Shown here one piece after another: positions 9,117 to 24,576 of a stretch of DNA of 38,747 nucleotides; position 1 is the first letter of the stretch; every line of letters starts with the position of its first letter. The position numbers were made by a program, and so were the translations under genes. The notes under the pieces were generated by a model. It saw nothing but the letters and a program-made list of their open reading frames with translations. It searched no databases and had not been told where the DNA came from. The DNA is taken from the NCBI GenBank assembly GCA_005889075.1, contig VBDQ01000035.1:1-38747 (forward strand). Reading direction: 5' to 3'. The stretch is from Chloroflexota bacterium (GTDB lineage: Bacteria > Chloroflexota > Limnocylindria > P2-11E).

Positions 9117-9124
9117 CGGCCTTC

Positions 9125-9130
9125 ACCATA
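9125..9130 (-). promoter_or_regulatory. Candidate -10 box of the sigma-factor operon
   Basis: TATGGT on the minus strand, 8 nt upstream of the ATG at 9116. That spacing would put the transcription start at or next to the start codon, a leaderless arrangement. No TTGACA-like box is found 17 bp upstream, so it may be read by an ECF factor or be a chance match. Confidence 0.3.
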
Positions 9131-9166
9131 GAGAGGCGCGCCACCCCCTATTTCTTTAGTCCCCGA

Positions 9167-9196
9167 TTGACAGGCCAGATGGGTCGCCGTGACACT
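9167..9196 (+). promoter_or_regulatory. Candidate sigma-70-type promoter of acpP
   Basis: A perfect -35 TTGACA at 9167-9172 followed, after 18 bp, by a poor -10 GACACT at 9191-9196. It lies in the 139-bp divergent gap between the sigma gene and acpP and would give a leader of about 50 nt carrying the strong GGAGGAGG at 9245-9252. The -35 is convincing; the -10 is weak. Confidence 0.4.
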
Positions 9197-9255
9197 TGCG
9201 CGGACCTGTCCGTGGGCGGACGGTCGGGGGTCGACTTGACCCGCGGAGGAGGTAA

Positions 9256-9501
9256 GTGTTGGCGCAGGGAAACACCTACGAGCGCCTCAAGAAGATCATC
9301 GTCGAGCAGCTGGGCGTGGATGAAGGCGATGTGAAACCTGAGGCGTCGTTCGTGGACGATCTGAACGCTGACTCGCTTGACCTGGTCGAGTTGATCATGA
9401 GCCTCGAGGAAGAGTTCGGGATGGAGATCTCGGACGAAGAGGCGGAGAAGATCAAGACGGTCGGCGACGCGCAGGAGTACATCGAGGAGCACGTGGCTTA
9501 G
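9256..9501 (+). CDS. acpP: Acyl carrier protein
   Basis: 81 residues, strongly acidic, the normal size for ACP, which carries growing acyl chains on a 4'-phosphopantetheine arm. The attachment serine is in the canonical DSLD motif (Ser40, within [15 protein letters not shown]), followed by the recognition helix and [17 protein letters not shown]. Start GTG at 9256 or TTG at 9259; both fit the GGAGGAGG at 9245-9252. It stands alone between its own promoter region and a strong terminator, consistent with high independent expression. No fabF or fabG is adjacent. Confidence 0.96.
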
Positions 9502-9531
9502 CGACAAACCATCACGCCGCGCCATCAAGGG

Positions 9532-9565
9532 GAGGCAGGGGCACGAGAGCCCCTGCCTCTTTGTT
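9532..9565 (+). terminator. Intrinsic terminator after acpP
   Basis: Perfect 11-bp inverted repeat GAGGCAGGGGC (9532-9542) and GCCCCTGCCTC (9549-9559) around a 6-nt loop, followed by TTTGTT. It is the only textbook rho-independent terminator I see in the window. It ends 13 nt before the rnc start, so it may also limit read-through into rnc-smc-ftsY. Confidence 0.85.
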
Positions 9566-9578
9566 ATCTGTGGAGGAG

Positions 9579-10256
9579 ATGAGCGACATCGAGATCGCCG
9601 GATATCGCTTCAGGGATCCGTCTCTGCTCGAAACAGCGCTGACGCACAGCTCGTACCTGCACGAGCACACGGACGTCGCCGCAACAGACTTCGAGCGCCT
9701 CGAATTCCTTGGTGACGCGGTCGTCGATCTCGTGATCGGCGAGGAGCTCTTCCGCCGATTCCCCGACGCGACCGAGGGCGAGCTCACCGCACTTCGCGCG
9801 CAGCTGGTCTCTTCCGCTGCGCTCGCCGAGGTCGGAAGGCGCCTCGCGCTGCCCGAGCTCGCGCGGCTCGGGCGCGGCGAAGAGGAGACCGGGGGCCGGT
9901 CGCGCGTCGGTCTCGCGGCGAGCTTACTTGAGTCCGTGATCGGCGCGATCTACATCGAGGCCGGCCTCGACGCGACGAGAGACGCGATCCTGCGCACGAT
10001 GGGCGATGCGATCGCCGCGACCGTCACCGCGCCGCGCAAGACCGCGAAGACGGTGTTGCAGGAATGGGCGCAGGCCGAGCACCACCCGCTTCCGCTCTAC
10101 CGGACGCTCGACATCAGCGGCCCGGAGCACCGCCGCGGTTTCGTCGTCGAGGTCGAGGTCGAGGGCAACGTCGCGCAAGGCAGCGGTCAGTCCAAGCGCG
10201 CGGCCGAGGAGGCCGCGGCCGCGAAGCTGCTCGAGCTGGTGACGCATGAGCGATGA
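9579..10256 (+). CDS. rnc: Ribonuclease III
   Basis: 225 residues from ATG 9579. RNase III cuts double-stranded RNA, including rRNA precursors. The signature ERLEFLGDA lies at 39-47 with Glu42 and Asp46 as metal ligands, Glu67 in TEGELTALR matches the E65 position of the E. coli enzyme, and a double-stranded RNA-binding domain fills the C-terminus from about residue 155 (LQEWAQAEHHPLPLYR). At the second metal-ligand pair the sequence is LAASLLESVIGAIY: Glu118 is present but the usual Asp (D114 in E. coli) is Ser115. TTG 9561 and GTG 9570 are in-frame alternatives; the GGAGG at 9572-9576 is only 2 nt from the ATG. Overlaps smc by 11 nt. Confidence 0.93.
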   Translation: MSDIEIAGYRFRDPSLLETALTHSSYLHEHTDVAATDFERLEFLGDAVVDLVIGEELFRRFPDATEGELTALRAQLVSSAALAEVGRRLALPELARLGRGEEETGGRSRVGLAASLLESVIGAIYIEAGLDATRDAILRTMGDAIAATVTAPRKTAKTVLQEWAQAEHHPLPLYRTLDISGPEHRRGFVVEVEVEGNVAQGSGQSKRAAEEAAAAKLLELVTHER

Positions 10257-13200
10257 GCTGAAGGTCATCGACGGCGGGGTGAGCGCGCCGAACGCGGTGC
10301 TGAAGACGCTCGATCTCGCCGGCTTCAAGAGCTTCGTGCACAAGACCCATCTCGAGTTCGCTCCGGGGATCACCGCGATCATCGGTCCGAATGGCAGCGG
10401 GAAGACGAATCTTGTTGACGCGCTGCGATGGGCGCTTGGCGAGAACAACGCGCGCATCCTGCGCGCGAAGCGCAATGAAGAGCTGATCTTCGGCGGATCC
10501 GAGAGTCGCAAAGCCCTCGGCTTCGCCGAGGTGCTGATGCAGCTCGACAACACGTCGAGACGTTTGCCGATCGCGTTCACCGAGGTCGAGGTCGGACGGC
10601 GACTTTTCCGAAATGGCGACGCGGAATATCTCGTCAACCGTTCGCGGGTGCGGCTGCGCGACATGCAGGAGCTTCTCGCGGGCGCGAATCTCGCGGACAA
10701 CGCATTCGTGGTAGTCGGCCAGGGCCTGACGGATCAGATCCTCGCGCTCCGTCCCGCTGACCGGCGGACCGTCATCGAAGAAGCCTCTGGCACACGGAGG
10801 TTGCAGCTGCGCCGCGAGGAGGCGCTTCAGCGGATGAAGCTCTCCGAAGGGGAGCTCGTGCGAGTGAACGACATCCTTCGCGAGATCGGGCCGCGGGTCG
10901 AAGCGCTCCGCGAGCAAGCCGCGAAGTGGAACGAGTACGAGACCATCCGGAACGAGCTACGCCGTCGCGCGCTCCGCTGGTACAAGGCCTCGTTTGGGAC
11001 GACAGCCGAGGAGCGTGCGGACCTCGCGGCCAAGATCGTGGGCGTCGATCGCGAGATCGAGCGACTCGCCGACTTCGTCGCCGAGGGCGAATCCGCGACG
11101 GTCGGAACCGACGAGGAGCTGCGGACAGCCCGAGCGGAAGAGGAGCTCCGACGTATCGCCGCAGCCGACGCGACCGCCACCGAGAGCGCCGCGCGAGAGC
11201 GTCTCGCGGTCCTGGAGGCGAGCCTTGCCGCGATCACAGCAGAGCGTGAACGGACGGGCGCGGCGCTGGCCGCATTACCCGCAGAGCTCGCGACCCTGCG
11301 CGCTCGGCGCGCAAAGGTGGACGAGGAGGCAAGCGAAAGCGCGCGTCACGCGCGCGCGGCCGCTGACGGCGCGCGGACCGCCGAGGAGGATGCCTCGCGC
11401 ACCCGGGTCGCCCTCGCCGAAGCGCGCGCCGCGCGAGTCGAAGCTGAACGCGCGCACCTGATACGTGAAGGCGATGAGATCCGTCTCCGAGATGAAGAAC
11501 AGCAGCTGCTCGAGCGGGAGGGGGACCTTTCGCAGAGCGCTGCGAGACTCGGGCGCGAGCGCGCGGAGCGCGAGCGAGAACGAAGCGAGCTCGCCGCCGA
11601 GCTCGAGCGGGCGCGCACGACGGTCGCGGAGAGCGCGCGCTTCGCCGAGAGCACCGCCGAGCGGGCCGGCGCCGCACGCAACGATCTGCAGCGGATCGAT
11701 GGAGACCTCGCACTGCTGCGCGGTCAGACCTCGGCACTACGCGAAGCGCTCGAGCGCGCAGAAGCCGAGATCGCGACTCGCGAAGCCGCGACCGACCTTC
11801 CGCCGCTTCCGAACGGATTCTCGTGGCTGCACGAACGGATCGCGTCGTCGGACGCGATCCGCGACGCGCTCGGCGGCCCGGTCGCGTTGACGGGCGCTGG
11901 GATCGACGCCCCTGTCCCGAAAGGAATGCGGCGCGTCGCCGACGGGGTTGCGATCTTCATCGCGTCGGACGACGAGACCGCGCTCGCGGCGGCGTCGACG
12001 CTGCGCGGAGGAGTCGTCGTCGCGCCAAGCGGGCTACTTGTTCTCCCGGGCCTGGCGAGGCTCGTCGAGCCGCGGGCGCGAGCGGAGCGCGACGCGATCG
12101 CGCAGCTGCGAGCGATGGGCGCTCGCCTCGGCGAGGAGCTTCTCGCCTCCGAGCGCGCGCACAGGGACGTGCTCCTGCAGCGGGCGGCGGCCGAGCAGCG
12201 TCTGAACGAGGCGGAGGCGCGGCTCGCGTCGGCACAACGCTCGCGAGGCGAGGCGGAGCGCGCAGCAGATTCGCTCGCTACCGCGGAAGCGGATGTCCGC
12301 GACGACGTTCGGGCCGGCGAAGCGAGCGCATCGGCGATCGAGCGCGAGCGTGCGGCGGTCCTCACTCGACGGGACAAGCTCGCCGCCGACCGCGGCCTTG
12401 CGGCGAAAGCGCGCTCCGTCGCGGCCGAGGCGTTCGCGGCCGCCGAGCGCAGTGAGCAAGCCGCGATCGATGCGCACAACGCGGCAGCGAAGCGTGCGGA
12501 AGAGGCGCGGCTCGACGCCGCGACGATGGAAGAACGGAGGTCGGCCGCAGTGCGCTTGCGCGACGCGCTGGACGAACAGGTCGGCGCCACGGAGCGCCGC
12601 ATCCACGAAGAGGAGGAAAGGCTGCGCGCGCTGACCGGTCAGGAGCGCGACGTGCGCGGTCGTCGCGAGACCGGGCAGCAGGACCTCGGGCGCGCGGTCG
12701 CGGACGCGAAAGAAGGGCGGCGCTCGGCGGACCTCGCGCGCGAGCGAGCGCGCGCTGCCGAGGGTTCGCGTCGAGAGCAGGAACAGCGGCTCGCGAAAGC
12801 TCGCGAGCGACTCGCCGAGATCAGGGGGGAACGTGGCAAGCTCGCGGTCGAGGAGGAGCGCGCCGCTGGTGCGCTGCGCTTGTTGGAGGAGCAGGTCCGG
12901 GCCGAGCTCGGGCTTCCGGAAGACGAACCGTTGCCCGACCCCGCGAGCATCACGGTCGACGCCGAGCCGGACGAGAAGGAGCGCGCGAGCACGCTCGGCG
13001 CGCTTCAGCGCCTACGCCGGCGGCTGATCGCGCTCGAGCCTGTGAATCCGCTCGCAGCGACCGAGCTCGCGGACATCGGGCAGCGCCACGACTTCCTGTC
13101 GACGCAGAAGGTGGATCTCGAGCGCGCGATGCGGGATCTCCGAACGCTCGCCGGCGAGCTCGCGACCACGATCGCCGAGCAGTTCAGCGCGACGCTGCAG

Positions 13201-13644
13201 GCCGTCGACCGCGAATTCGGGGTCTTCTTCCAGCGGCTGTTCAACGGCGGCCAGGCGTCGCTTCGTACGAGCGAAGACGTGGAAGATCCAGGGATCGACA
13301 TCTATGCGCGACCGCCGGGCAAGCGGATCGGCAGCCTCGCCCAGCTGTCGGGTGGCGAGCGCGCGCTTACGGCCACGGCGCTGCTCCTCGCTATCCTGCG
13401 CGTGCGGCCTGCGCCGTTTTGCGTCCTCGACGAGGTCGACGCGGCGCTCGACGAGCGCAACGTCGGCCGCTTCACCCAGGCGCTCCGCGAGCTCACCGAC
13501 CGCACGCAATTCGTCGTCATCACGCACAACCGCGCGACGATCGAAGCCGCCGATGCGATCTACGGGGTCTCGATGGATGACGCCGGCGTATCGAAGGTGA
13601 TTTCGCTCCGGCTCGCGGACCTCGACGCGGCGCGCGCCGGCTAG
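10246..13644 (+). CDS. smc: Chromosome segregation protein SMC (short hinge)
   Basis: 1132 residues, slightly short for bacterial SMC (usually about 1150-1190). SMC dimers extrude and align DNA loops. Head parts are complete: Walker A GPNGSGKTNLVDALRWALGE (about 46-65), the ABC signature LSGGERALTATALLLAIL and Walker B FCVLDEVDAALDE near the C-terminus. Two coiled-coil arms of about equal length (roughly 165-515 and 607-950), rich in Glu/Arg/Ala, are joined by a hinge of only about 90 residues (517-607) without the usual GRATFLP-like block. ATG start at 10246 overlaps rnc by 11 nt. No scpA or scpB is in the window. ftsY follows, as in many bacteria. Confidence 0.93.
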   Translation: MSDELKVIDGGVSAPNAVLKTLDLAGFKSFVHKTHLEFAPGITAIIGPNGSGKTNLVDALRWALGENNARILRAKRNEELIFGGSESRKALGFAEVLMQLDNTSRRLPIAFTEVEVGRRLFRNGDAEYLVNRSRVRLRDMQELLAGANLADNAFVVVGQGLTDQILALRPADRRTVIEEASGTRRLQLRREEALQRMKLSEGELVRVNDILREIGPRVEALREQAAKWNEYETIRNELRRRALRWYKASFGTTAEERADLAAKIVGVDREIERLADFVAEGESATVGTDEELRTARAEEELRRIAAADATATESAARERLAVLEASLAAITAERERTGAALAALPAELATLRARRAKVDEEASESARHARAAADGARTAEEDASRTRVALAEARAARVEAERAHLIREGDEIRLRDEEQQLLEREGDLSQSAARLGRERAERERERSELAAELERARTTVAESARFAESTAERAGAARNDLQRIDGDLALLRGQTSALREALERAEAEIATREAATDLPPLPNGFSWLHERIASSDAIRDALGGPVALTGAGIDAPVPKGMRRVADGVAIFIASDDETALAAASTLRGGVVVAPSGLLVLPGLARLVEPRARAERDAIAQLRAMGARLGEELLASERAHRDVLLQRAAAEQRLNEAEARLASAQRSRGEAERAADSLATAEADVRDDVRAGEASASAIERERAAVLTRRDKLAADRGLAAKARSVAAEAFAAAERSEQAAIDAHNAAAKRAEEARLDAATMEERRSAAVRLRDALDEQVGATERRIHEEEERLRALTGQERDVRGRRETGQQDLGRAVADAKEGRRSADLARERARAAEGSRREQEQRLAKARERLAEIRGERGKLAVEEERAAGALRLLEEQVRAELGLPEDEPLPDPASITVDAEPDEKERASTLGALQRLRRRLIALEPVNPLAATELADIGQRHDFLSTQKVDLERAMRDLRTLAGELATTIAEQFSATLQAVDREFGVFFQRLFNGGQASLRTSEDVEDPGIDIYARPPGKRIGSLAQLSGGERALTATALLLAILRVRPAPFCVLDEVDAALDERNVGRFTQALRELTDRTQFVVITHNRATIEAADAIYGVSMDDAGVSKVISLRLADLDAARAG

Positions 13645-13673
13645 CTCGGTCCTCGAGGGTACCGTCTGGCGTA

Positions 13674-14573
13674 ATGAGCATCGAGCAAGCGCTCGCAAAG
13701 ACCCGCGGGGGACTCTTGTCGCGCCTCTTCGGCCGAGGCGACGAGAAGGTCACCGCCGAGTGGCTCGACTCGCTCGAGGAGTCGCTCCTGCGTGCGGATC
13801 TATCCGTCTCGCTGGTGGATCCGCTGATGGCGCAGCTACGCGACCTCTTTGCGACCGGCGCGATCAAGACCGTCCCCAAGGCGCTGGACGCCGTACGCGA
13901 CACGCTGGTCGCGGCGCTCGCCGGCGACCTCGCGCTGAACTCGAGCGGCCAGAAACCGCGTGTGATCCTTATCGTCGGGGTCAACGGAAGCGGCAAGACG
14001 ACGACCGCGGCGAAGCTCGCGAAGCGTCTCAAGGATGCGGGCGAACGTCCGCTTCTCGCCGCGGCGGACACGTTCCGCGCGGCGGCCATCGAACAGCTCG
14101 AGCGATGGGCCGAGCGCATCGACGTTCCTGTCGTGTCCGGGAAGCCCGAAGGCGACCCAGCCGCGGTCGTCTTCGACGCGGTGCAGGCCGCGGCCGCGCG
14201 CGATAACACGACGGTGATCGCGGACACTGCCGGCCGTCTCCACACGAAAGGCCATCTCATGGACGAGCTCGGGAAGATCGTCCGCGTAACCGGGCGAGCC
14301 CGCGCGGGCGCGCCCGACGAGGTCCTGCTCGTGCTCGACGGCACCGCGGGCCAGAACGCTATCCAGCAAGCACGCCAGTTCACGGCTACGGCTGCAGTCA
14401 CCGGCCTCGTGGTCGCGAAGCTCGACGGCACAGCGAAGGGTGGAGCGGTGTTCGCGATCGCACAGGAGCTCAAGCTCCCGGTGAAGCTCGTCGGCGTGGG
14501 TGAGAAACCCGATGACCTCATCCCGATGGATCCGGTCGCTTTCGTGAACGGTCTTCTGCCCGCGCACACCTGA
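13674..14573 (+). CDS. ftsY: Signal recognition particle receptor FtsY
   Basis: 299 residues, an FtsY without the long acidic A-domain. FtsY is the membrane-associated GTPase that receives SRP-ribosome complexes. N domain from residue 1 (LLSRLFGRGDEKVTAEWLDSLEESLLRADLSV), then the G domain with P-loop GVNGSGKTTTAAKLAK (about 102-117), the DTFRAAAIEQLERWA insertion box, DTAGRLHTKGHLMDEL, the TKxD-type KLDGTAKGG and GVGEKPDDLIPMDP. A TACCGT -10-like box lies 8 nt before the ATG. The gap after smc is 29 nt. The C-terminus is GLLPAHT, normal for the family. Confidence 0.96.
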   Translation: MSIEQALAKTRGGLLSRLFGRGDEKVTAEWLDSLEESLLRADLSVSLVDPLMAQLRDLFATGAIKTVPKALDAVRDTLVAALAGDLALNSSGQKPRVILIVGVNGSGKTTTAAKLAKRLKDAGERPLLAAADTFRAAAIEQLERWAERIDVPVVSGKPEGDPAAVVFDAVQAAAARDNTTVIADTAGRLHTKGHLMDELGKIVRVTGRARAGAPDEVLLVLDGTAGQNAIQQARQFTATAAVTGLVVAKLDGTAKGGAVFAIAQELKLPVKLVGVGEKPDDLIPMDPVAFVNGLLPAHT

Positions 14574-14592
14574 GCCTCATACTCGCTGGCTG

Positions 14593-15345
14593 ATGGCGGT
14601 CGTTCGTTTGCGCAGCGGTGATCTCAAGCAGGCCCTCGAGGCCGGCGCGCTTTCAGTTCATTACCAGCCGCAGGTACACGTACCGACGGGAAAGCTCGCC
14701 GGTGTCGAGGCGTTCGTGCGCTGGCCGCATCCGGCGTACGGAATGATCGGACCGGGCGACATCATCCCGCTCGTCGATCAGGCCGGACTCCACGTCGAGT
14801 TCGACCGGTGGGTCGTCGGCGCGATCTGCACGCAAGCGAAGCGATGGAAGAAGGCGAAGGTCGATGTTCCGATCGTCGCCGCGAACGTCTGGGCGCAGAC
14901 CCTTCGCCATCCCGACGTGCTCAAGCTCATGGAGGCGCTCGCCGACACAGGAGCCGACCCGCGGCAGATCGAGCTCGAATGTCCCCGCGGATCGACCGCC
15001 GATCCCGCTCTGCACAAGACCCTCGTGAGCATCCGCGCGCTTGGCGTGCGGCTCGCGTCCGAGGAATACGCGAGCGGCGCCCGCCCCTCCGGCAAGCTCC
15101 GGTTCGACACCCTCAAGATCCCGTTCCCGATCTCGCGCGATCACCAGTCGAACGCGGACGCGATCCGTTCGGTGGTCGCCGCGGGTCAGTCGATCGGCGC
15201 GCGCGTGATCGCGGATTCGGTCGAGACGCTGGCTCAGGAGGACGCCCTCGTCGCTCTGGGAGTCGAGATCGTTCAGGGTTATCTGTACGGTCCGGAGGTC
15301 GCTCCCGGGGAGCTCAGGACGCTGATCAGCCGGCCGGCCGAGTAG
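14593..15345 (+). CDS. EAL-domain protein, probably catalytically inactive
   Basis: 250 residues forming a lone EAL domain with no sensor region. Active EAL domains hydrolyse c-di-GMP to pGpG with two metal ions. Here the frame of the family is clear (VHYQPQVHVPTGKLAGVEAFVRWPHP, Asn98, Lys175, Gln228 in VQGYLYGP), but key residues have changed: EAL reads EAF (39-41), LEITE reads LECPR with Arg132 for the second Glu, the DDFG pair reads EEYA (157-160), and LKID reads LKIP (Pro177). This suggests a c-di-GMP binding or structural role rather than hydrolysis. ATG start 19 nt after ftsY. Its 3' end overlaps the convergent GGDEF gene by 20 nt. Confidence 0.85.
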   Translation: MAVVRLRSGDLKQALEAGALSVHYQPQVHVPTGKLAGVEAFVRWPHPAYGMIGPGDIIPLVDQAGLHVEFDRWVVGAICTQAKRWKKAKVDVPIVAANVWAQTLRHPDVLKLMEALADTGADPRQIELECPRGSTADPALHKTLVSIRALGVRLASEEYASGARPSGKLRFDTLKIPFPISRDHQSNADAIRSVVAAGQSIGARVIADSVETLAQEDALVALGVEIVQGYLYGPEVAPGELRTLISRPAE

Positions 15346-16105
15346 CTCCCGCAAGCCGCAGCTGATCTTTTCCCTCGCGCTTCACTTCGAGAAGCGCGAG
15401 GTCGGCGTCCTGGAGCAGCTCGTCGAAGCCTTCGCCCTCGCTTGAGACGGCGAGGCCGACGGAGGCGGTCACCGCGGTACCCGAGGCGCGCGTGATGCCG
15501 GCGACCACCGCGCGGATTCGCTCCATGATCCGCAGCGCGTTCTCCACGTCGCAGGCATCGAGGTAAACGACGAACTCATCACCTCCATAGCGACCGGCGA
15601 GATCACGTGGCCGGAGGTTCGCGCGGATCGCGCTGGCGACGAGCTCGAGGACCTTGTCGCCAGTCGGATGCCCGCGCGAGTCGTTCACCGCCTTGAATCC
15701 ATCGAGATCGACCACCGCGATCGCGGCCGGGCTCCGGTTGGGCCGATGGAGCAGCGCGGCCACGGCGCGATGGAAGGCCTCGCGGTTCAAAAGCCCGGTC
15801 GTGATGTCGTGCTCGGCACGGGTCTCGATGTCCCGCAGCTGATCGCGTTCGGAGCCGTATAGCAGGACGAATCCTGTCGCAAAGAGCGCCAAGGTAAGGA
15901 GTTCGAACAAAGCGGCCGCGTCGGCCTGGCCTGCGAGTCCATCGAGCGCGCTGTGCGCGACCAGCGTCAACGAACCGACCGCGAAGAGCAGCCACGAGCG
16001 CATGTGCCGGGGACGCCGTCCGCTGCGAAGGGCGGTGATGCTCACGGCGGCGAGTGAGATCGCGATGGCGAGATCGGCGCTCATCACGAAGGTCTGCACC
16101 GTCAT
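15326..16105 (-). CDS. Membrane-bound diguanylate cyclase (GGDEF)
   Basis: 259 residues. Three or so hydrophobic helices (about 10-27, 36-52, 65-84) anchor the protein, followed by a GGDEF domain from about residue 95. The domain has LDGFKAVNDSRGHPTGDKVL, the intact active-site GGDEF (174-178) and, five residues before it, RPRD (165-168), the RxxD inhibitory site that binds product. It should therefore make c-di-GMP from two GTP and be feedback-inhibited. It faces the degenerate EAL gene, with overlapping 3' ends, and is divergent from the S8 protease gene. No known sensory domain is visible beyond the membrane helices. Confidence 0.9.
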   Translation of the reverse strand: MTVQTFVMSADLAIAISLAAVSITALRSGRRPRHMRSWLLFAVGSLTLVAHSALDGLAGQADAAALFELLTLALFATGFVLLYGSERDQLRDIETRAEHDITTGLLNREAFHRAVAALLHRPNRSPAAIAVVDLDGFKAVNDSRGHPTGDKVLELVASAIRANLRPRDLAGRYGGDEFVVYLDACDVENALRIMERIRAVVAGITRASGTAVTASVGLAVSSEGEGFDELLQDADLALLEVKREGKDQLRLAGATRPAG

Positions 16106-16293
16106 GCCGCGAGCATGCGCTCAACGCGTCGCGACGACACGCGTCCCGGTGACAAATGCGTGCCGACCGCACAGCGCAATGCCCAAAACATCTTGAAGTC
16201 CCGCGCGAAAAGGCGCTTGCTACTGCGCCAGACGGGGTGGTGAGGGCGCGGATCGGCCGCGCTGGGGGAGCGTTGCAGCACGGGGGAGTCGCG

Positions 16294-17967
16294 TTGAAGC
16301 GCTGGACCGCGGCATCGCTTGCCGCCGTCCTTCTCATGACCGCACTCGGCGCGAGCGTCGAGGCGAAAAGCGATGACACCAAGATCAGCCCGCCGCTTCT
16401 CGCGGCCATGCGCGCGAATCCGCAGCTCGACTTCGCGGTGATCGTGCGCGCGACTGGAGGCAACAGAGACAAGACTCGCGAATCCGCGCTCGCGGCCGCG
16501 GCCGTTGTGAAGACGAAGGGTCGCCTTGGCCACGGGCTTTCGATCATCGGCAGCGTCTCGGCTCGGCTCCGCTGGTCGCAGGTGCAGGCGCTCTCGCATG
16601 ACAAGGACGTCGCGTACATCTCGCGCGACGACGTCGTGCTGGCGAAGTTCGACCCGGTCGAAACCGCGACGCTCGTGACGACACCGGGCGTGCGGGAGAT
16701 CGGGGCGCCGGACGCCTGGACGCGTTATGGCGTGACCGGCAAGGGGATCGGTGTCGCGATCCTCGACAGCGGTATCGCTCCCCATCCGGACCTCGCCGGC
16801 CGGATCGTCGCGTCGGTCGATCTCACGAGCGGACTTCCGGGCGAGCCGCTGGTCGCGCCGGCCGATCCGGGCGGTCACGGGACGCACGTTGCCGGTCTTG
16901 TCGCCGGCGACGGCACCGCGTCGGCCGGCATGTACACCGGTGTCGCGCCGGGCGCGAATCTCGTGGACGTTCGGGTCATCGGCTCGGGTGGAGCGACGAC
17001 GATCTCAACCCTTGTGCGTGGGATGCAGTGGGTTCTCGCGCATCGGGCGACGTACAACATCCGCGTCGCGAACCTCTCCGCGGGCGCGCCGGTAGCGACG
17101 AGCTACAAGACCGACCCGCTCGCGGCCGCCGTCGAGGTGCTCATCCTCGCGGGCGTCACGGTCGTGGTCTCGGCTGGGAATAACGGACCGGGCAATTCGA
17201 CGATCACGACACCCGGCAGCGATCCGTACGTCGTCACGGTGGGCGCGATCGACGACAACGCGACGCCCTCGCTCGACGACGACTCGTCAGCGTCGTGGTC
17301 ATCGCGCGGTCCGACGTACATCGATGCCACCGCGAAGCCCGATCTCGTGGCGCCTGGCCGAAAGATGGTGAGCCTGCGCTCGCCGGGCAGCACGCTCGAT
17401 CTCGAGCTGCCCGACCGGCAAGTCGCCGGGCTCGATGCGGCCGCACCGGCGTACTTCCGCCTTTCGGGCTCGTCGATGGCCGCACCCGTGGTCACGGGCG
17501 TCGTGGCCCTCATGCTTGAGCGCAATCCGGGGCTCACCCCCGCGCAGGTGAAGCACCGGCTCAAGACCACCGCCACACCGCTTGCGTACGGAACTCCGAC
17601 ATCGACGGGAAGCGGTCTCGTGAACGCCGTCGCCGCGGTCGGCTCGGGCGACGCCGCCGCCGATACGGCGAGCAACGGATTCTCGGACGGCCTCGCCGAC
17701 GAGATGTATCCGTATATCTACGGCCAGCCGATCCAATGGCGCGATCCGAACTTCAACGGCGGTGTCGACACCAACGGCACCGCGTGGTCGCAGGTCACCT
17801 GGTCGACCGTGGTGTGGGACGAAGTCACCTGGCAGAACATCACCTGGGAGGCGTTCAGCTGGAGCGGCGTGACATGGGAGGACATCACATGGGAGGACAT
17901 CACCTGGGAGACCGCGTCGCAGAACGTCAACGGCCTGAGTGGGCCGCTGGCGGTGCCGCTGGACTAG
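16294..17967 (+). CDS. Secreted S8 (subtilisin-like) serine protease with Trp-pentad tail
   Basis: 557 residues from a TTG at 16294, chosen because GGGGGAG at 16282-16288 is 5 nt upstream and it gives a classic signal peptide (KRW, then AASLAAVLLMTALGA, cut near SVEA). After a propeptide-like I9 region, the catalytic triad is complete: Asp158 in AILDSGIAPHPD, His195 in GHGTHVAGL and Ser394 in SGSSMAAPVVTG. The C-terminal tail carries nine pentads W-x-x-[V/I/F]-[T/S/V] (encoded at 17785-17919), then QNVNGLSGPLAVPLD. Such Trp repeats occur on extracellular proteases of some Chloroflexota and actinobacteria; they may stick the enzyme to the cell surface. HD-GYP starts 2 nt after the stop, so the two are probably co-transcribed. 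Confidence 0.92.
   Translation: MKRWTAASLAAVLLMTALGASVEAKSDDTKISPPLLAAMRANPQLDFAVIVRATGGNRDKTRESALAAAAVVKTKGRLGHGLSIIGSVSARLRWSQVQALSHDKDVAYISRDDVVLAKFDPVETATLVTTPGVREIGAPDAWTRYGVTGKGIGVAILDSGIAPHPDLAGRIVASVDLTSGLPGEPLVAPADPGGHGTHVAGLVAGDGTASAGMYTGVAPGANLVDVRVIGSGGATTISTLVRGMQWVLAHRATYNIRVANLSAGAPVATSYKTDPLAAAVEVLILAGVTVVVSAGNNGPGNSTITTPGSDPYVVTVGAIDDNATPSLDDDSSASWSSRGPTYIDATAKPDLVAPGRKMVSLRSPGSTLDLELPDRQVAGLDAAAPAYFRLSGSSMAAPVVTGVVALMLERNPGLTPAQVKHRLKTTATPLAYGTPTSTGSGLVNAVAAVGSGDAAADTASNGFSDGLADEMYPYIYGQPIQWRDPNFNGGVDTNGTAWSQVTWSTVVWDEVTWQNITWEAFSWSGVTWEDITWEDITWETASQNVNGLSGPLAVPLD
17785..17919 (+). repeat. 15-bp-period tandem repeat coding for Trp pentads
   Basis: Nine consecutive 15-nt units, each coding for Trp plus four residues, at the 3' end of the S8 protease gene. 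The last units are the most alike at DNA level (TGGGAGGACATCAC twice in succession), while the first have diverged, which fits stepwise expansion by slippage or unequal crossing-over. Confidence 0.85.
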
Positions 17968-17969
17968 GG

Positions 17970-19364
17970 ATGAAGCACGCTGTCGCCACTGCCTACATCG
18001 CGATCGTCGCGGCTCTTGGTGCGGCGCTCCTCGTCGTGAGCTCGATCGGTGTGCGCACGAGCGCCATCGACCCGGTGATGTTCATCCTGATCCTCGCGCT
18101 TGCGGGCGTCGCGCAGCGCAACCCCGTCGTGCTCTTCCGCTCGAGCGCGATCTCGGTCGCGTTCGCGGTGAAGATCGCGGCCTACGTGCTGTTCGGGACG
18201 CCACTCGCCTTGTGGGCGACTGTGGTCGTCGCCGCGGTGAACGCCTACACGCCGAAGCCGAAGCCCGCGAGGAAGGTGCTCTTCAACTTCGGCCAGCTGG
18301 CCGTGTCCACGTACCTCGCTTCGTCGACGTACCAGCTTGTCGGCGGGATGGTGCCGCCGGGAGCCCTCGTCCCGACGATGCTCGCCGTCGGGGTTTCGGC
18401 CGCGGTGTACTTCGCAGCGAACAGCCTGCTGACCGCCGGCGTCATCACGCTCACGTCGGACGCGCGCTTCTGGCAGGTCTGGACGCAGAACTTCGCCTGG
18501 ATGCCGCTGAACTACCTCGCGACCGCGATCAACGGCGCGGCGCTCGCGCTCGCGTACCAATCGCTCGGTCTCGTTGGCGTGGTCGTCTTCGTCCTTCCGC
18601 TCACCGTGGCGTGGTACTCGTTCAACCTGTACATGATGAAATCGACCGAGGTCCGCCAGCAGAACAAGGAGCTCGTCGCCATGAACGAGAGCTTGCAGCG
18701 GACGTCCGAACGGCTCGAGGCGTCGCACGTCTCTGTCATCGCGGCGCTCCTCGGCTCGCTCGCGGCGAAGGATCATTACACCCAGGGCCACTCGGCCTCG
18801 ACGATGCATCACGCGCTGGCTGCGGCGAAGGCGCTCGGGCTCGGCCCGGACGAGGTCGCCGCTGTGAATCTCGGTGCGCTTTTCCATGACATCGGCAAGA
18901 TCGGCATCCCGGAGCACATCCTCCGCAAGCCCACGGCGCTCACGGAAGAAGAGTGGGCCGAGATGAAGACGCATCCGATCATCGGCGCGAACCTCATCGG
19001 GGAGGTACCGAACCTCGAGCGGATCAGGCCCATCGTCCTCGCGCACCACGAGCGCTACGACGGCTCGGGTTACCCGAACGGGCTCAGGGCCGACGAAATC
19101 CCACTGGCTGCTCAGATCATCGCGGTCGCGGACACCTACGAGGCGATGACCTCAACACGGCCATACCGCGCGGCCCTCTCGCACGAGGCCGCCCTCGCGG
19201 AGCTGAGGCTCGTCTCGGGCACGCAGCTCAATCCCGTGGTGGTGGACGCGTTCATACGCCAGCTCGACACGCCCGGGCCCGGGGTCGCGCACGCTCACGA
19301 CGGTCTCGAGCACGTGCACGTGCGCGAGCGCGCGGCGGAGGCGGTGCGGCTCACCACGAACTGA
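17970..19364 (+). CDS. Membrane-bound HD-GYP phosphodiesterase
   Basis: 464 residues from ATG 17970 (AGGG just upstream). The N-terminal half (to about 225) has seven or so hydrophobic helices, a MASE-like sensor not matching a family I can name. A short coiled segment leads into the HD-GYP domain, with HD at 306-307 (LFHDIGKIGIPEHIL), HHERYDGSGYP with Gly367-Tyr368-Pro369, and VADTYEAMTSTRPYR. HD-GYP enzymes degrade c-di-GMP (or cGAMP) to mono- or dinucleotides. Metal-binding His and Asp residues look intact, so this rather than the nearby EAL protein is the probable active c-di-GMP phosphodiesterase. The Arg/Glu-rich end (HVRERAAEAV) is a plain tail. Confidence 0.92.
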   Translation: MKHAVATAYIAIVAALGAALLVVSSIGVRTSAIDPVMFILILALAGVAQRNPVVLFRSSAISVAFAVKIAAYVLFGTPLALWATVVVAAVNAYTPKPKPARKVLFNFGQLAVSTYLASSTYQLVGGMVPPGALVPTMLAVGVSAAVYFAANSLLTAGVITLTSDARFWQVWTQNFAWMPLNYLATAINGAALALAYQSLGLVGVVVFVLPLTVAWYSFNLYMMKSTEVRQQNKELVAMNESLQRTSERLEASHVSVIAALLGSLAAKDHYTQGHSASTMHHALAAAKALGLGPDEVAAVNLGALFHDIGKIGIPEHILRKPTALTEEEWAEMKTHPIIGANLIGEVPNLERIRPIVLAHHERYDGSGYPNGLRADEIPLAAQIIAVADTYEAMTSTRPYRAALSHEAALAELRLVSGTQLNPVVVDAFIRQLDTPGPGVAHAHDGLEHVHVRERAAEAVRLTTN

Positions 19365-19381
19365 ACGAGGCGACGGCCGTT

Positions 19382-19387
19382 TAGAGT
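19382..19387 (+). promoter_or_regulatory. Candidate -10 box, leaderless type
   Basis: TAGAGT, 7 nt before the GTG at 19395. The 14 bases from TAGAGT to the start (TAGAGTCGAGCGCG) match those before the ATG at 27820 (TAGAATCGAGCGCG) at 13 of 14 positions, so this is likely a real promoter element with transcription beginning at the start codon. Confidence 0.5.
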
Positions 19388-19394
19388 CGAGCGC

Positions 19395-19997
19395 GTGGAT
19401 ACGTGGACGGTGCTCCTGATCGGGGGGCCCGCGGCGACGCGAAAGACCTCCGTCGCTAAGACGATCGCAGCCCGTTGCGGGGCCGAAGCACTCCAAGCGG
19501 ACGATGTCTGGCTTGCGTTGCAGCGCGCCATCGACCCTGATACGCGGCCGACCCTGCACTTCTTCGCCCGAGAGACTGTCTGGGATCGGCCGATCGAGGA
19601 GCTCGTGACCGCCATGCGAGTTCTCGCGGACGAAGTCTCGGCCGCGCTGGAGCCCGTGACGGCCCACCACCTCAGAGTGCGGGATCGGATCGTCATCGAG
19701 GGCGTCTGGATCACGCCAGCGTTCGCTGCTCGCAAGGCGTTCGGGGGAAGTACCTACGACGGCGCGGTGCGCTCGGTCTTCATCGACGAGCGAGACCAGA
19801 CCGCCATACGCGACGTGATGCTTGCGCGCGGCCGCGGCATCCAGGAGTGGCTGCCGCGAAGGCAGACCGCGATGGTGCGGATGCAGGCGGGCTACGGGGA
19901 ATGGCTTCGCGAGGCCGCCAGCGCTCAAGGCTTGCCGCTCGTTGCGGCGCGACCGGTCGAAACGCTCGTCGACCGAGTGCTCACCGCGGTCAATTGA
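19395..19997 (+). CDS. P-loop kinase-like protein with altered Walker A
   Basis: 200 residues with a nucleoside-kinase-like layout: N-terminal strand and loop VLLIGGPAATRKTSVAKTIA (6-25), then LQADDVWLALQRA, where the Asp pair resembles the substrate-binding DD of small P-loop kinases, and RIVIEGVWITP as a later strand. The Walker A reads GPAATRKT, with Arg16 where Gly is normal in GxxxxGK[ST], so nucleotide binding may be changed. It could be a small-molecule kinase (2-phosphoglycerate kinase or antibiotic kinase type) or a divergent AAA protein. GTG start; its TGA overlaps the ATG of ffh by one base. No substrate can be named. Confidence 0.7.
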   Translation: MDTWTVLLIGGPAATRKTSVAKTIAARCGAEALQADDVWLALQRAIDPDTRPTLHFFARETVWDRPIEELVTAMRVLADEVSAALEPVTAHHLRVRDRIVIEGVWITPAFAARKAFGGSTYDGAVRSVFIDERDQTAIRDVMLARGRGIQEWLPRRQTAMVRMQAGYGEWLREAASAQGLPLVAARPVETLVDRVLTAVN

Positions 19998-21337
19998 TGT
20001 TCGAGCAGCTCTCGGACCGGCTCGCGAACACGTTCGAGCGCCTCCGGGGTCGCCCACGCGTCACCGAGGCCGATCTCGAGGAGGCCCTGCGGGACGTGCG
20101 CGTCGCGCTCCTCGAGGCCGACGTCAACCTCAAAGTCGTCCGTCAGCTCGTCGCCACGGTCCGTGAGCGCGCGCTCGGCGAGCGGGTGCTCGAATCGATC
20201 ACCGGCGCCCAGCAGGTCGTCAAGATCGTCCACGACGCGATCGTCGACATGCTCGGGGGAGCGGCCACGCCGCTTGCGCGCGCCGAGCCGCCGCCGACGG
20301 TCATCGTCCTCGCAGGACTTCAGGGCTCGGGGAAGACGACGACAGCAGCGAAGCTCGCGAACATGCTCCGCAAACAGGGCCGCCATCCGCTGCTTGTTGC
20401 GGCCGACGTCCATCGTCCCGCCGCGATCGATCAGCTCCAGACACTGGGAAAGCAGCTCGGTATCCCGGTGCGTGCTGTCGATCCGGCTCGCATCGCGGAC
20501 GATGTCGCATCGTTCGCGGCCGGGGCGTCGGCCGAGGGACGGGACGCCGTGATCGTCGACACCGCCGGACGCCTGCACATCGATGAGGCGATGATGAGCG
20601 AGATCGCCGAGGTCGTCGCAGCGAGCAAACCGCACGAGGTCCTCCTCGTCGTCGACGCGATGGCCGGGCAGGATGCTGTCGAGAGCGCCACGGCATTTCA
20701 TGCGCGGTTGCCGCTCACCGGACTGGTCCTCGCGAAGGCGGACGGTGACGCGCGCGGCGGCGCGTCGCTCTCCGTGCGCGCCGTCACCGGCGTCCCGGTG
20801 AAGCTCATCGGGACCGGCGAGAAGCTCGACGCGATCGAAGTCTTCCACCCGGACCGCCTGGCGCAGCGCATCCTCGGAATGGGGGACATCCTCACGCTCG
20901 TCGAGCGTGCCCAAGAACAGGTCGACCAGAAGACCGCTGAAGAGCAGGCGCGCAAGCTTCTCGATGCGCAGTTCACGTTCGACGATTTCTACACGCAGCT
21001 CCAGCAGGTCAAGCGGATGGGCCCCCTCGGAGACCTGTTGAAGATGATTCCCGGCATGGGTGGGCTCGCGAAGCAGCTCCCCGAAGGACCGGCCGCCGAG
21101 CGGGAGATGCGAAAGATCGAGGCGGTGATCTCGTCGATGACGAAAGCCGAGCGGGCCGATCCAGGGCTGATCAACGGATCCCGCCGGCGGCGGATCGCGG
21201 CAGGCTCCGGGACGACGGTCGCCGACGTAAATCAGCTCATCAAGCAATTCGCCGAGATGCGCAAGCTCATGAAGCAGATGGGCACGATGGCTCGATCCGG
21301 GCGTCTCCCTCGGTTGCCCGGGATGCCCCGCGTCTAG
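19997..21337 (+). CDS. ffh: Signal recognition particle protein Ffh
   Basis: 446 residues from ATG 19997, the normal Ffh length. Ffh with 4.5S RNA binds signal sequences and targets ribosomes to FtsY. N domain MFEQLSDRLANTFERLRG; G domain with P-loop GLQGSGKTTTAAKLANML (about 107-124), DTAGRLHIDEAMMSE, LAKADGDARGGA and GTGEKLDAIEVFHP. The Met-rich M domain from about residue 300 has MGPLGDLLKMIPGMGGL, SMTKAERADP, RRRRIAAGSG for RNA binding and MRKLMKQMGTM. The frame is open further upstream, but that part has no family similarity. The partner ftsY is 5.4 kb upstream, separated by the signalling genes; no ylxM is present. Confidence 0.96.
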   Translation: MFEQLSDRLANTFERLRGRPRVTEADLEEALRDVRVALLEADVNLKVVRQLVATVRERALGERVLESITGAQQVVKIVHDAIVDMLGGAATPLARAEPPPTVIVLAGLQGSGKTTTAAKLANMLRKQGRHPLLVAADVHRPAAIDQLQTLGKQLGIPVRAVDPARIADDVASFAAGASAEGRDAVIVDTAGRLHIDEAMMSEIAEVVAASKPHEVLLVVDAMAGQDAVESATAFHARLPLTGLVLAKADGDARGGASLSVRAVTGVPVKLIGTGEKLDAIEVFHPDRLAQRILGMGDILTLVERAQEQVDQKTAEEQARKLLDAQFTFDDFYTQLQQVKRMGPLGDLLKMIPGMGGLAKQLPEGPAAEREMRKIEAVISSMTKAERADPGLINGSRRRRIAAGSGTTVADVNQLIKQFAEMRKLMKQMGTMARSGRLPRLPGMPRV

Positions 21338-21343
21338 GCAAAA

Positions 21344-21352
21344 TGCGATAAT
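21344..21352 (+). promoter_or_regulatory. Candidate extended -10 for the rpsP operon
   Basis: TGCGATAAT, a TGn extension followed by GATAAT (21347-21352), in the 69-bp gap between ffh and rpsP. No good -35 is seen at the right distance, which extended -10 promoters do not need. It would drive rpsP-khpA-rimM-trmD with a leader of about 50 nt including GGAGG at 21391-21395. Confidence 0.4.
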
Positions 21353-21406
21353 CATCCGCATATCCGCGCCAGCGGACCGCAGATCGCTGAGGAGGACCCC
21401 GTCGAC

Positions 21407-21676
21407 TTGGCCGTGCACATCCGCCTGCGCCGCGTAGGCAAGACGAAAGCGCCGACGTACCGCGTCGTCATCGCGGACTCGCGCGCGCCCCGCAACGGAA
21501 AGTTCATCGAATCCATCGGGCATTACGACCCACGGTCTGAGCCCGTCACCCTCGTGGTGAACGCCGAGCGTGCCCGCCACTGGTTCAAGAACGGCGCGAA
21601 GCCGACGGCGACCGCACGCTCGCTGCTCGTCCGCAGCGGAATTCCCGAGGGGGAGGTCCCCGCATCAGTCAGATGA
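21407..21676 (+). CDS. rpsP: 30S ribosomal protein S16
   Basis: 89 residues, normal for S16, an early assembly protein of the 30S subunit. The start block MAVHIRLRRVGKTKAPTYRV and the following VVIADSRAPRNGKFIESIGHYDP are diagnostic. The TTG at 21407 is preceded by GGAGG 11 nt upstream; the GTG at 21413 is a shorter alternative. The stop is overlapped by khpA (ATGA). Confidence 0.96.
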   Translation: MAVHIRLRRVGKTKAPTYRVVIADSRAPRNGKFIESIGHYDPRSEPVTLVVNAERARHWFKNGAKPTATARSLLVRSGIPEGEVPASVR

Positions 21677-21945
21677 GCGGCGAGAGGGCGAGCACCGAGT
21701 CGGTCTCGAACGGGAGCATGCGCGGGCTGCTCGAGCACGTCGCCAGGGCGCTCGTCGACGATCCGACGGCGGTGGTCGTCACCGAGACGCAGGACGGCGA
21801 CTTCACCAAGTTCCATCTCCAGGTCGCGGAAGCCGACGTCGGCAAAGTCATCGGACGTGGCGGCCGTATCGCGAAGGCCATCCGCGCGCTCCTGAAAGTG
21901 ATGGCGACGCGCGATGGAACAAAGGTCAACCTCGAGATCGATTAG
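21673..21945 (+). CDS. khpA: KH-domain RNA-binding protein KhpA
   Basis: 90 residues with one type II KH domain. The GxxG loop is GRGG (61-64) in KVIGRGGRIAKAIRALLKV, and the strand before it is KFHLQVAEADVG. KhpA, often with KhpB/Jag, binds many RNAs and affects cell division and translation in Gram-positives. The position between rpsP and rimM is the conserved one. ATG start coupled to rpsP. About 15 extra N-terminal residues (SGERASTESVSNGS) precede the domain. Confidence 0.92.
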   Translation: MSGERASTESVSNGSMRGLLEHVARALVDDPTAVVVTETQDGDFTKFHLQVAEADVGKVIGRGGRIAKAIRALLKVMATRDGTKVNLEID

Positions 21946-22441
21946 CAGCGAAGATCTCGTCATCGGCGTCATTCGCGCGCCGCACGGCGTGCGGGGCGAA
22001 GTGAAGGTCGAGTCGCGGACGGATGTCCCAGGGCGGTTCAAGAAGGGTTCGCGCTTGCGCTGCGATGACGTGGGCGAGCTGGTGGTGGCATCGGTCCGGG
22101 GCACCGCGGACGTGCCGATCGTGCGGTTCGACGGCCGGACGACCCGGGAGGATGCCGAGCGGCTCCGCGGCAAGCGCCTTCGGGTCTCGCGAGCGGACGC
22201 GCGCCGCGCGGCGAAGGGCGCGTACCTGTGGGCCGATCTGCTCGGCCTGCATGCGGAGACGCCGGAGGGACAGCCGCTCGGAGACGTTCGCGAAGTGCTT
22301 CGGGCTGGGGAGACCGACGTGCTGGTGATCCGCCCGGTGTCCGGTGCGGATCTGCTCGTGCCGGCGATCGCTTCCGTGGTGCGCGAGGTCGACGTCGCCG
22401 CGGGCCGCGTGGTGATCGTGCCTCAGGAGACTTTCGAGTGA
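21914..22441 (+). CDS. rimM: Ribosome maturation factor RimM
   Basis: 175 residues. RimM binds S19 and helps 30S head maturation. The N-terminal RimM fold shows [20 protein letters not shown] (15-34), a family signature, and the C-terminal PRC-barrel part shows [17 protein letters not shown] and [12 protein letters not shown]. The ATG at 21914 overlaps khpA by 32 nt, longer than usual; no ATG/GTG/TTG is closer to the conserved block, so this start is the best one seen. The stop overlaps the trmD GTG (GTGA). Confidence 0.92.
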
Positions 22442-23439
22442 GCCTGCGCATCGATGTGCTGACGCTCTTTCCGAAGATGTTCGAGAGCCCCTTCGCCGAG
22501 AGCATCGTCGCTCGCGCGCGAGCCGCAGGACAGCTCGAGCTCGCGATCCACGACATCCGCGAATGGACCACCGACCGCCACCGCGTAGTCGACGACGCAC
22601 CCTACGGCGGCGGTGCGGGCATGGTCCTGAAACCGGAGCCGCTGACACGAGCGATCCGCACGACGAAAGCCGAGCGTGGCCACGTCGTGCTGATGAGCGC
22701 GCAAGGAAGGCTCTTCGATCAAGCCACGGCACGCCGTCTCGCGACGCAGCGGCATCTGGTGCTCGTCTGCGGTCACTACGAGGGTATCGACGAGCGCGTC
22801 GTCGAGAAGGACGTCGACGAGGAGATCTCGATCGGCGATTTCATCCTCACCGGCGGCGAGCTCGCGGCGATGGTCGTCATCGACGCGGTCACGCGGATCG
22901 TGCCGGGCGTGATCGAGACCGCGTCTCTCGAGCGCGAGTCGCATACAGAGGGTCTGCTGGAGGGGCCGCAGTACACGAGGCCGGCCGAGCACGAGGGTCG
23001 GCGCGTGCCTGGCGTGCTTCTGTCGGGCGACCATGCCGCGATCGCGCGGTGGCGCCGCGCTGAATCGATCCGCAGGACGGCCGAGCGGCGCCCCGATCTT
23101 CTTTCGACCGCTGCGCTCACTCCCGCGGAGCGAGCGCGCCTGCCGCGCCCGAGCGGGACCGAGCCGGTCGCGGACGCGGATCTGATCGCCGCATACGCGT
23201 CAGGGGTCGGGTCGTATCGGATCGCGGCACGGTTTGGGATCTCGCCCGCGACCGTGCGCAGCCGCCTCCGCGCCGCCGGCATCCGCCTGCGCCCGCCGCG
23301 CGGAGCCCAGCGCGGGCCGACGGCGGCGGAGGTCGCCCGGATGCGATCGTCGGGTCTCACGATCCGCCAGCTCGCACGTCACTTCGGCGTTTCGCACGTG
23401 ACGATCATCGATCGGTTGAAGCGCGCGAGACCGGCTTGA
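22438..23439 (+). CDS. trmD: tRNA (guanine37-N1)-methyltransferase TrmD with C-terminal double HTH extension
   Basis: 333 residues, about 85-95 more than usual TrmD. TrmD methylates G37 in tRNAs reading CNN codons and prevents +1 frameshifting. Residues 1-233 are a full Trm[29 protein letters not shown], the knot region [13 protein letters not shown] (109-121), [13 protein letters not shown] with the catalytic Asp134, and [14 protein letters not shown] (169-182). After a linker (PRPSGTEP) come two helix-turn-helix units, about 246-282 ([34 protein letters not shown]) and 295-330 ([34 protein letters not shown]). The frame is unbroken and its codon use looks the same throughout. GTG start coupled to rimM. 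Confidence 0.95.
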
Positions 23440-23440
23440 T

Positions 23441-23472
23441 CCGGGGGCTGGGGGGCACAGCCCCCCAATTGG
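23441..23472. repeat. Dispersed GC-rich hairpin repeat, copy 1
   Basis: Right after the trmD stop: CCGGGGGCTGGGGGG, then CACAGCCCCCCAATTGG. The second copy at 37605-37636 matches at all but two of the 32 positions and has the same orientation. It can fold as TGGGGGGC/GCCCCCCA with a 3-nt loop or as GGGGGCT/AGCCCCC with a 9-nt loop. Here it is intergenic and might act as a terminator-like structure before rplS, but no T-run follows. Confidence 0.85.
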
Positions 23473-23513
23473 CGCTAGACTTTCGACGCTTCGTGAGTGT
23501 GATCACCATTCCT

Positions 23514-23861
23514 ATGAACGACCTGGTCAACACGCTTGCCCGTGAGCAGCTGAAGGCCGACCTCCCCGAGGTCAGGCCCGGTGACACCGTGCGCGTAAGC
23601 GTTCGTGTCGTCGAGGGCAACCGCGAACGGCTCCAGAACTTCGAGGGGGTCGTTCTTCGCGTGCGCAACGGAGGGCTCGATCGTCAGATCACCGTAAGGC
23701 GGATCGCGAGCGGGATCGGCGTGGAGCGCACGTTCCTCATGCACTCGCCGCGCGTCGAGAAGATCGAGCTCGTGAAGCACGGACACGCCCGCCGCGCGGC
23801 CCTGTATTTCCTGCGCGACCGGGTCGGCAAAGCCGCGACTCTGCGCGAAAAGCGCCGCTGA
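23514..23861 (+). CDS. rplS: 50S ribosomal protein L19
   Basis: 115 residues from ATG 23514. L19 lies at the 30S-50S interface. Blocks [64 protein letters not shown] and [15 protein letters not shown] are diagnostic. GTG codons at 23493 and 23499 are in frame and would add 5-7 residues; no good Shine-Dalgarno supports any of them. A TAGACT at 23476-23481 could be the -10 box, giving a leader of about 25 nt for the ATG, or nearly leaderless for the GTG at 23493. Confidence 0.95.
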
Positions 23862-23864
23862 CCC

Positions 23865-23894
23865 TTGACCGGCGACCCGCCGGTCCGTTGAACT
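23865..23894 (+). promoter_or_regulatory. Candidate promoter and hairpin before rnhB
   Basis: TTGACC (23865-23870), 18 bp, TGAACT (23889-23894), then 7 nt to the GTG of rnhB, again a leaderless-type spacing. The spacer holds the inverted repeat GACCGGC (23867-23873)/GCCGGTC (23879-23885), which may end rplS transcription or bind a regulator. The two readings compete for the same bases. Confidence 0.35.
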
Positions 23895-23901
23895 AATCGC
23901 C

Positions 23902-24576
23902 GTGCCGTCTCTTAACGCCGAGAAACGCCTCTGGGCCGAAGGACTGCTTCGCGTCGTCGGCGTCGACGAAGTGGGGATGGCGACGCTCGCGGGTCCGGTG
24001 GTCGCCGCCGCATGCCTTGTCACGCCCGACGTCCGCCTGATCCGCGCGGTCCGCGATTCGAAGGTGCTCACGCGACAGCAACGCGAGGAGCTGGTCCCCG
24101 AGATCCGCGCCCGTGTCGCGAAGATCGGCGTCGGCGCGGCGTCCGTCGCCGAGATCCATCGCCTCAACATCTATCACGCGTCGCATCTTGCGATGCTGCG
24201 CGCGCTCCGTCAGGTCGGCGAGTATGACTGGGTCTTGGTCGATGGACGGCGCATCGTCGATCCCGCGTTCGCGCCAGGGCGCCACACCGAGATCGTGAAA
24301 GGCGACTCGAAGAGCTTCGCGATCGCGGCCGCGTCGATCGTGGCAAAGGTGACGCGCGATCGGTTGATGTCAAAGCTCGCGGCGAAGTACCCCGGCTACG
24401 GCTGGGAGCACAACTGCGGGTACCCGACGATCGACCACCGCAAGGCTCTGCGCGCGCTCGGAGTCACGCCGTACCACCGGCAGGATTTCGGGACCGTGAA
24501 ATTCCTGATCATGCGCGAGCACCAGATGGCGCTCGAGCTCGACGGGGCTGAGCTCGCCGAAGTGTCGCTGAGTTGA
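23902..24576 (+). CDS. rnhB: Ribonuclease HII with a changed GRG motif
   Basis: 224 residues. RNase HII removes ribonucleotides from DNA and RNA from RNA/DNA hybrids. Asp22 and Glu23 (VGVDEVG), Asp in DWVLVDGRRIVD, and the GDSKSFAIAAASIVAKVTRD block keep the DEDD-type active site. The block that is normally DE[AV]GRGxLAGP reads DEVGMATLAGPV: the GRG used to recognise the RNA-DNA junction is GMA (25-27). The C-terminal block GYGWEHNCGYPTIDHRKALRALGVTPYHRQ is normal. GTG start; gene order rplS-rnhB-yraN is conserved, though two accessory genes now separate rnhB and yraN. Confidence 0.93.
   Translation: MPSLNAEKRLWAEGLLRVVGVDEVGMATLAGPVVAAACLVTPDVRLIRAVRDSKVLTRQQREELVPEIRARVAKIGVGAASVAEIHRLNIYHASHLAMLRALRQVGEYDWVLVDGRRIVDPAFAPGRHTEIVKGDSKSFAIAAASIVAKVTRDRLMSKLAAKYPGYGWEHNCGYPTIDHRKALRALGVTPYHRQDFGTVKFLIMREHQMALELDGAELAEVSLS

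Follow-up and report, generated by a model that had tools for sequence, protein, structure and literature searches.

Do the c-di-GMP signalling genes and the exported protease that lie between the two SRP GTPase genes, ftsY and ffh, of a soil Chloroflexota genome (2.83 Mb in 144 contigs) form one device, or do separate units share a single interval? The first-pass annotation of the stretch of DNA analysed here (the window; 38 747 nucleotides) had described four signalling or secretion genes that together make, break and bind c-di-GMP and export a protease, and had suggested control of secretion or surface release by c-di-GMP. Chloroflexota are a large, mostly uncultured soil phylum. To our knowledge, surface proteolysis has been linked to c-di-GMP in few cases, the best known of which runs from c-di-GMP to the protease.

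Based on the window sequence and Pfam/NCBIfam searches, the ftsY–ffh interval contains five genes, which encode an EAL-domain protein (EAL1), a GGDEF protein, an S8 subtilase, an HD-GYP protein and a P-loop kinase-like protein (Table 1). Pfam confirmed the positions and domains of the four genes annotated previously, and the RxxD inhibitory site of the GGDEF protein and the HD-GYP start codon (ATG), 2 nt past the S8 stop codon, were both found in the sequence as described; the fifth, kinase-like gene had been missed. GGDEF, encoded on the minus strand, is convergent with EAL1 (20-nt overlap) and divergent from S8. No riboswitch was found in an Rfam scan of window positions 9000–24000.

Table 1. 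Features of the ftsY–ffh interval and its borders
Feature	Position in window	Strand	Evidence
ftsY (SRP receptor GTPase), left border	13674–14573	+	Pfam SRP54 242 bits; congener orthologues 82–87% identity
EAL1, degenerate soluble EAL-domain protein	14593–15345	+	Pfam EAL 136 bits; residue comparison; synteny
Membrane GGDEF, RxxD I-site, cassette member	15326–16105	-	Pfam GGDEF 129 bits; motifs; co-occurrence
Divergent intergenic region GGDEF/S8	16106–16293		Alignment of 8 holders; Rfam scan
S8 subtilase	about 16294–17967 (start uncertain)	+	Pfam S8 168 bits; motifs; model
Membrane HD-GYP, MASE9-like domain	17970–19364	+	Pfam HD_5 122 bits, MASE9 48.1 bits; motifs; model
P-loop kinase-like gene, outside cassette	19395–19997	+	Weak NCBIfam matches; absent from relatives' intervals
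ffh (SRP54), right border	19997–21337	+	Pfam SRP54, SRP_SPB

The kinase-like gene, whose stop codon overlaps the start of ffh (ATGA type), has weak similarity to 2-phosphoglycerate kinase and is found at this site in the window genome only, where it sits behind the TAGAGT-like element conserved upstream of ffh in relatives. Other guests of the ftsY–ffh gap in relatives are a second EAL gene and a 406-aa exported-looking protein. The latter is encoded on the opposite strand between ftsY and EAL in G008 and G006 (loci L044 and L040), and its G008 copy has no match in Pfam or NCBIfam. Elsewhere in the window, TrmD (22438–23439, plus strand) has a C-terminal extension of about 90–110 aa with weak tandem HTH matches, also present in the G008 orthologue (L044), and an ECF sigma-factor gene and, after it, a gene for a Gmad2-domain protein (7084–9116, minus strand) run opposite to the surrounding genes.

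FtsY was used as an anchor in 61 genomes, and the ftsY–ffh intervals were then re-read. The order ftsY–EAL–ffh occurs in the window and in all nine congeners with a readable interval (10/10 readable genus genomes), in 5/5 genomes from genus g7, and in several further genera of the family; other genomes lack an EAL gene here, their interval being empty or containing a reductase-like gene or other genes. EAL1 is a long-standing member of an ftsY–EAL–ffh operon, older than the GGDEF, S8 and HD-GYP genes at this site and inherited apart from them. When its residues were scored against the solved MorA EAL domain (4rni), it failed to show the full metal/catalytic set of an active EAL phosphodiesterase. 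The LTES Glu, at a metal-ligand position, is Arg in all ftsY-linked EAL1 orthologues examined, DD is EE in the window's genus and g7, and the AEG Glu is Asp in the same two genera, except in a truncated G006 copy. Because of these three replacements, EAL1 is predicted to be dead as a phosphodiesterase. Six motif residues (Q, E, R, N, K and Q) are almost fully retained, with few exceptions, in distant orthologues, which agrees with the earlier description of a degenerate EAL protein compatible with ligand binding. EAL1 has no TM-like segment and is a candidate cytoplasmic receptor of c-di-GMP or another ligand. Such a conserved, apparently dead EAL protein in an SRP operon is a second puzzle, separate from that of the neighbouring genes. 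In G004, G020 and G022 (L045, L049 and L050) a second EAL gene lies behind EAL1, with DDFG kept and the LTES Glu replaced by Pro, and a decayed remnant of a second EAL can be read from the sequence between EAL and ffh in G002 (L046).

Between EAL1 and ffh, the GGDEF, S8 and HD-GYP genes are present or absent together throughout the genus, and we refer to them as the cassette. Among the genomes compared, which are MAG assemblies and incomplete, the cassette occupies this site in the window, G003, G006, G008 and G009, its genes being ordered and oriented alike in all five. It is missing from the interval in G001, G002, G004, G007 and G010, and EAL1 stands there without it in these five congeners as well as in other genera. 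Intact cassettes are found at unrelated loci in the congener G007, in G022 (genus g7) and in G028 (another family of the order), without SRP genes and without EAL1. The EAL, GGDEF, S8 and HD-GYP genes are under purifying selection (dN/dS 0.07–0.24 among close holders). Recurrence of the cassette is beyond chance, because four congeners carry the set at this site and three further genomes carry it elsewhere, and because it is under purifying selection. Comparison of the interval among relatives thus reveals a conserved set and not random single insertions; the grouping proposed by the first-pass annotation stands for GGDEF, S8 and HD-GYP and falls for EAL1. Since EAL1 and the cassette each occur without the other, the SRP context is incidental to the cassette.

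A species tree built from SMC, FtsY, Ffh, RpsP and RimM clusters G003, G006, G008 and G009 and places the window apart. The holders therefore do not form a single clade, and their distribution requires either an insertion with later losses or more than one arrival. In the GGDEF, S8 and HD-GYP gene trees the genus copies stay together. The simplest account is that the cassette entered the EAL–ffh junction once in the genus and was later lost from some members; it may also have arrived there repeatedly.

The core of the cassette is the pair formed by S8 and the membrane HD-GYP gene. In a genome scan, all 19 HD-GYP loci with at least 51% identity have an S8 gene immediately upstream on the same strand, and many congeners carry a second, diverged (paralogous) S8/HD-GYP pair elsewhere. 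Phosphate-permease-like and DUF47-like genes lie close to this second pair (L134, on contig C6 of the host genome, G000, and counterparts), and a large BTAD/TPR regulator is encoded in between.

The S8 protein, the TTG start of which was set by comparison with relatives, consists of a signal peptide, a propeptide-like domain, a catalytic domain with intact Asp/His/Ser motifs and a C-terminal W-x4 pentad repeat (at about 17785–17910) that has no Pfam match. The repeat is common to the S8 proteins of the pairs, and its second position is usually acidic. The structural model has a subtilisin fold with the propeptide-like domain and matches pro-subtilisins, the nearest solved structure by fold being ProN-Tk-SP (3afg); the repeat tail has a pLDDT mostly below 50. 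Identity with the type VII mycosins was rejected, as the protein scores 154 bits compared with the NCBIfam TIGR03921 cut-off of 278.75 bits. The HD-GYP protein has a MASE9-like membrane domain (residues about 1–200; PF20972, 48.1 bits against a gathering score of 24.3, and borderline in distant relatives), a signalling helix and an HD-GYP domain with intact HD and HHExxDGxGYP motifs, and it is predicted to be a c-di-GMP phosphodiesterase. Its model (mean pLDDT 85) agrees in fold with solved HD-GYP domains, including c-di-GMP-bound DvhD, and in it a long helix joins the membrane domain to HD-GYP. The modelled membrane domain resembles ECF S-components (TmRibU) with TM scores of 0.67–0.68 by target length; as the E-value is weak (about 0.1), this likeness is suggestive only. 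The GGDEF protein (RPRD-LAGRY-GGDEF) carries an RxxD I-site, a GGDEF motif and two TM-like segments; both motifs are present in the window protein and in 9/10 relatives, and a feedback-limited diguanylate cyclase is predicted. An alignment of eight holders shows a weakly conserved promoter-like stretch between GGDEF and S8.

The pairing extends beyond the family. In a phylum sample picked by S8 similarity alone, 13 of the 22 W-repeat S8 genes whose downstream DNA could be read have a MASE9-like, GGDEF or HD-GYP gene on the same strand no more than 2 kb downstream, compared with none of 18 S8 genes that lack the repeat (a hand calculation of the one-sided Fisher test gives about 4e-5). Among the 13 positives, six come from a single family; the 18 controls come from the window's own family. 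About 40% of the W-repeat S8 genes lack a neighbour of this kind, and the MASE9-like HD-GYP proteins L172–L174 and L176 have no S8 in the surrounding DNA examined; neither partner is obligate, since each also occurs without the other. According to Pfam, the outputs behind the membrane domain are HD-GYP, GAF-HD-GYP, GGDEF, GGDEF-PAS-GGDEF-EAL and GAF-HisKA-HATPase. Because the output varies, the protease and the membrane domain are the constant part. The linkage between protease and c-di-GMP enzymes is supported as real and phylum-wide. Two further loci were recorded: L143 (contig C129), a third W-repeat S8 of the host genome, adjoins a GAF-PAS histidine kinase, and L276 (G175), which lies downstream of a W-repeat S8, is a long frame that joins GGDEF, MASE9-like, GAF and histidine-kinase domains.

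We hold with moderate confidence that the interval contains two independent units: an EAL protein, predicted to be dead and probably a receptor, and a cassette in which a protease–sensor pair, with its divergent cyclase, signals from outside in. Most likely, the cassette is a protease-coupled sensor that tunes c-di-GMP, an input role for the protease/membrane pair being favoured because the pair is constant and the outputs are interchangeable. The secreted S8 protease would act outside the cell, and the MASE9-like membrane domain may read the state, tail or product of the protease, perhaps by direct contact. The signal would then be relayed along the long helix to HD-GYP, which would lower c-di-GMP against the feedback-limited cyclase. 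If this is true, the cassette would offer a testable case of a protease acting on c-di-GMP, the reverse of the best-known link, together with a partner and a possible role for MASE9 and a first entry point to the study of c-di-GMP signalling across Chloroflexota. More tentatively, W-pentad-repeat subtilases and MASE9/S-component-like domains may constitute an undescribed class of protease-coupled transmembrane sensors, widespread in Chloroflexota and with varied outputs. A search of the open-access literature returned nothing on subtilases with HD-GYP, on MASE9, on tryptophan-repeat subtilases, or on c-di-GMP with subtilases in Chloroflexi.

The main rival, unlikely though credible, runs from inside out: c-di-GMP status, read by HD-GYP or EAL, would switch the exported protease and so surface release, as the first-pass annotation had in part supposed. 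Its precedent is LapD/LapG, in which a c-di-GMP receptor and a protease share one operon (PMC3032553), and it accords with an exported S8 beside a membrane protein and with a cassette that encodes both the making and the breaking of c-di-GMP. However, the HD-GYP catalytic motifs are intact and not those of a degenerate receptor fold, the membrane domain comes without a large LapD-type extracytoplasmic domain, and EAL1 is soluble and lies outside the cassette. Furthermore, the same position is elsewhere occupied by a GGDEF or histidine-kinase output, a pattern more in keeping with input from a sensor than with a readout of c-di-GMP. Control of surface release by c-di-GMP is thus one of two directions, of which the interchangeable outputs favour the reverse, and control of secretion in general is unsupported.

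It is improbable that the protease and the c-di-GMP enzymes are simply co-expressed from a shared promoter in one surface-lifestyle regulon, with no contact or signalling between them. Neither gene is obligate for the other, and S8 evolves faster than HD-GYP (62% versus 81% identity in the same genome pair), as such a regulon would allow, but only W-repeat S8 and MASE9-like partners show the linkage, it persists across families with different outputs, and the pair survives relocation and duplication. We regard as very improbable a single four-gene block that makes, breaks and binds c-di-GMP and exports a protease in concert with SRP, so that c-di-GMP controls secretion. All of the genes are adjacent in five genus genomes and EAL1 retains likely ligand-contact residues; against this, EAL1 and the cassette are inherited separately, the cassette stands at other loci without SRP genes, and ffh in the holders retains its own conserved upstream TAGAGT-like element, so ffh need not depend on the cassette. 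Chance gathering of unrelated genes in an insertion-prone gap is the best account of EAL1 lying beside the cassette, but as a general explanation it is hardly credible. In its favour, the gap also takes the kinase-like gene (window), a second EAL (G004, G020, G022) and, in G006 and G008, the 406-aa protein, and the genomes that hold the cassette do not form one clade, so that the cassette must have been lost or have arrived more than once. For the internal linkage of the cassette, chance is already refuted, since the three genes are always together at ftsY–ffh, recur together elsewhere and are under purifying selection.

Among known systems, LapD/LapG resembles the cassette in combining a c-di-GMP-type membrane protein and an exported protease in one operon, and in tying surface proteolysis to c-di-GMP. 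However, LapG is not a subtilase, whereas the cassette protease is of the S8 family; LapD is a degenerate HAMP-GGDEF-EAL receptor, whereas the membrane partner here is a MASE9-HD-GYP protein with intact motifs; and signalling in the cassette would likely run in the opposite direction. By Pfam, the cassette contains neither a degenerate HAMP-GGDEF-EAL receptor nor a LapG-type protease. EAL1 resembles the EAL domain of LapD and FimX in that the EAL fold and much of the ligand site are kept and catalytic residues are lost, but it is a stand-alone soluble protein in the ftsY–ffh operon, with the EAL Glu kept, the LTES Glu (now Arg) and the DD pair lost, and c-di-GMP binding putative. The cassette S8 shares a propeptide-like domain and the catalytic fold with propeptide subtilases such as ProN-Tk-SP, and differs from known subtilases in its C-terminal W-x4 repeat and its genetic tie to a membrane sensor. 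The modelled membrane domain is similar in fold to ECF S-components such as TmRibU, here fused to a signalling helix and HD-GYP. With the MASE9 signalling proteins (PF20972), which have HD-GYP or GGDEF outputs, the cassette shares the N-terminal domain, above cut-off, and an HD-GYP output, and it differs from those known in its operon partner, a protease with a W-pentad repeat, a combination of which we found no published account in the open-access literature.
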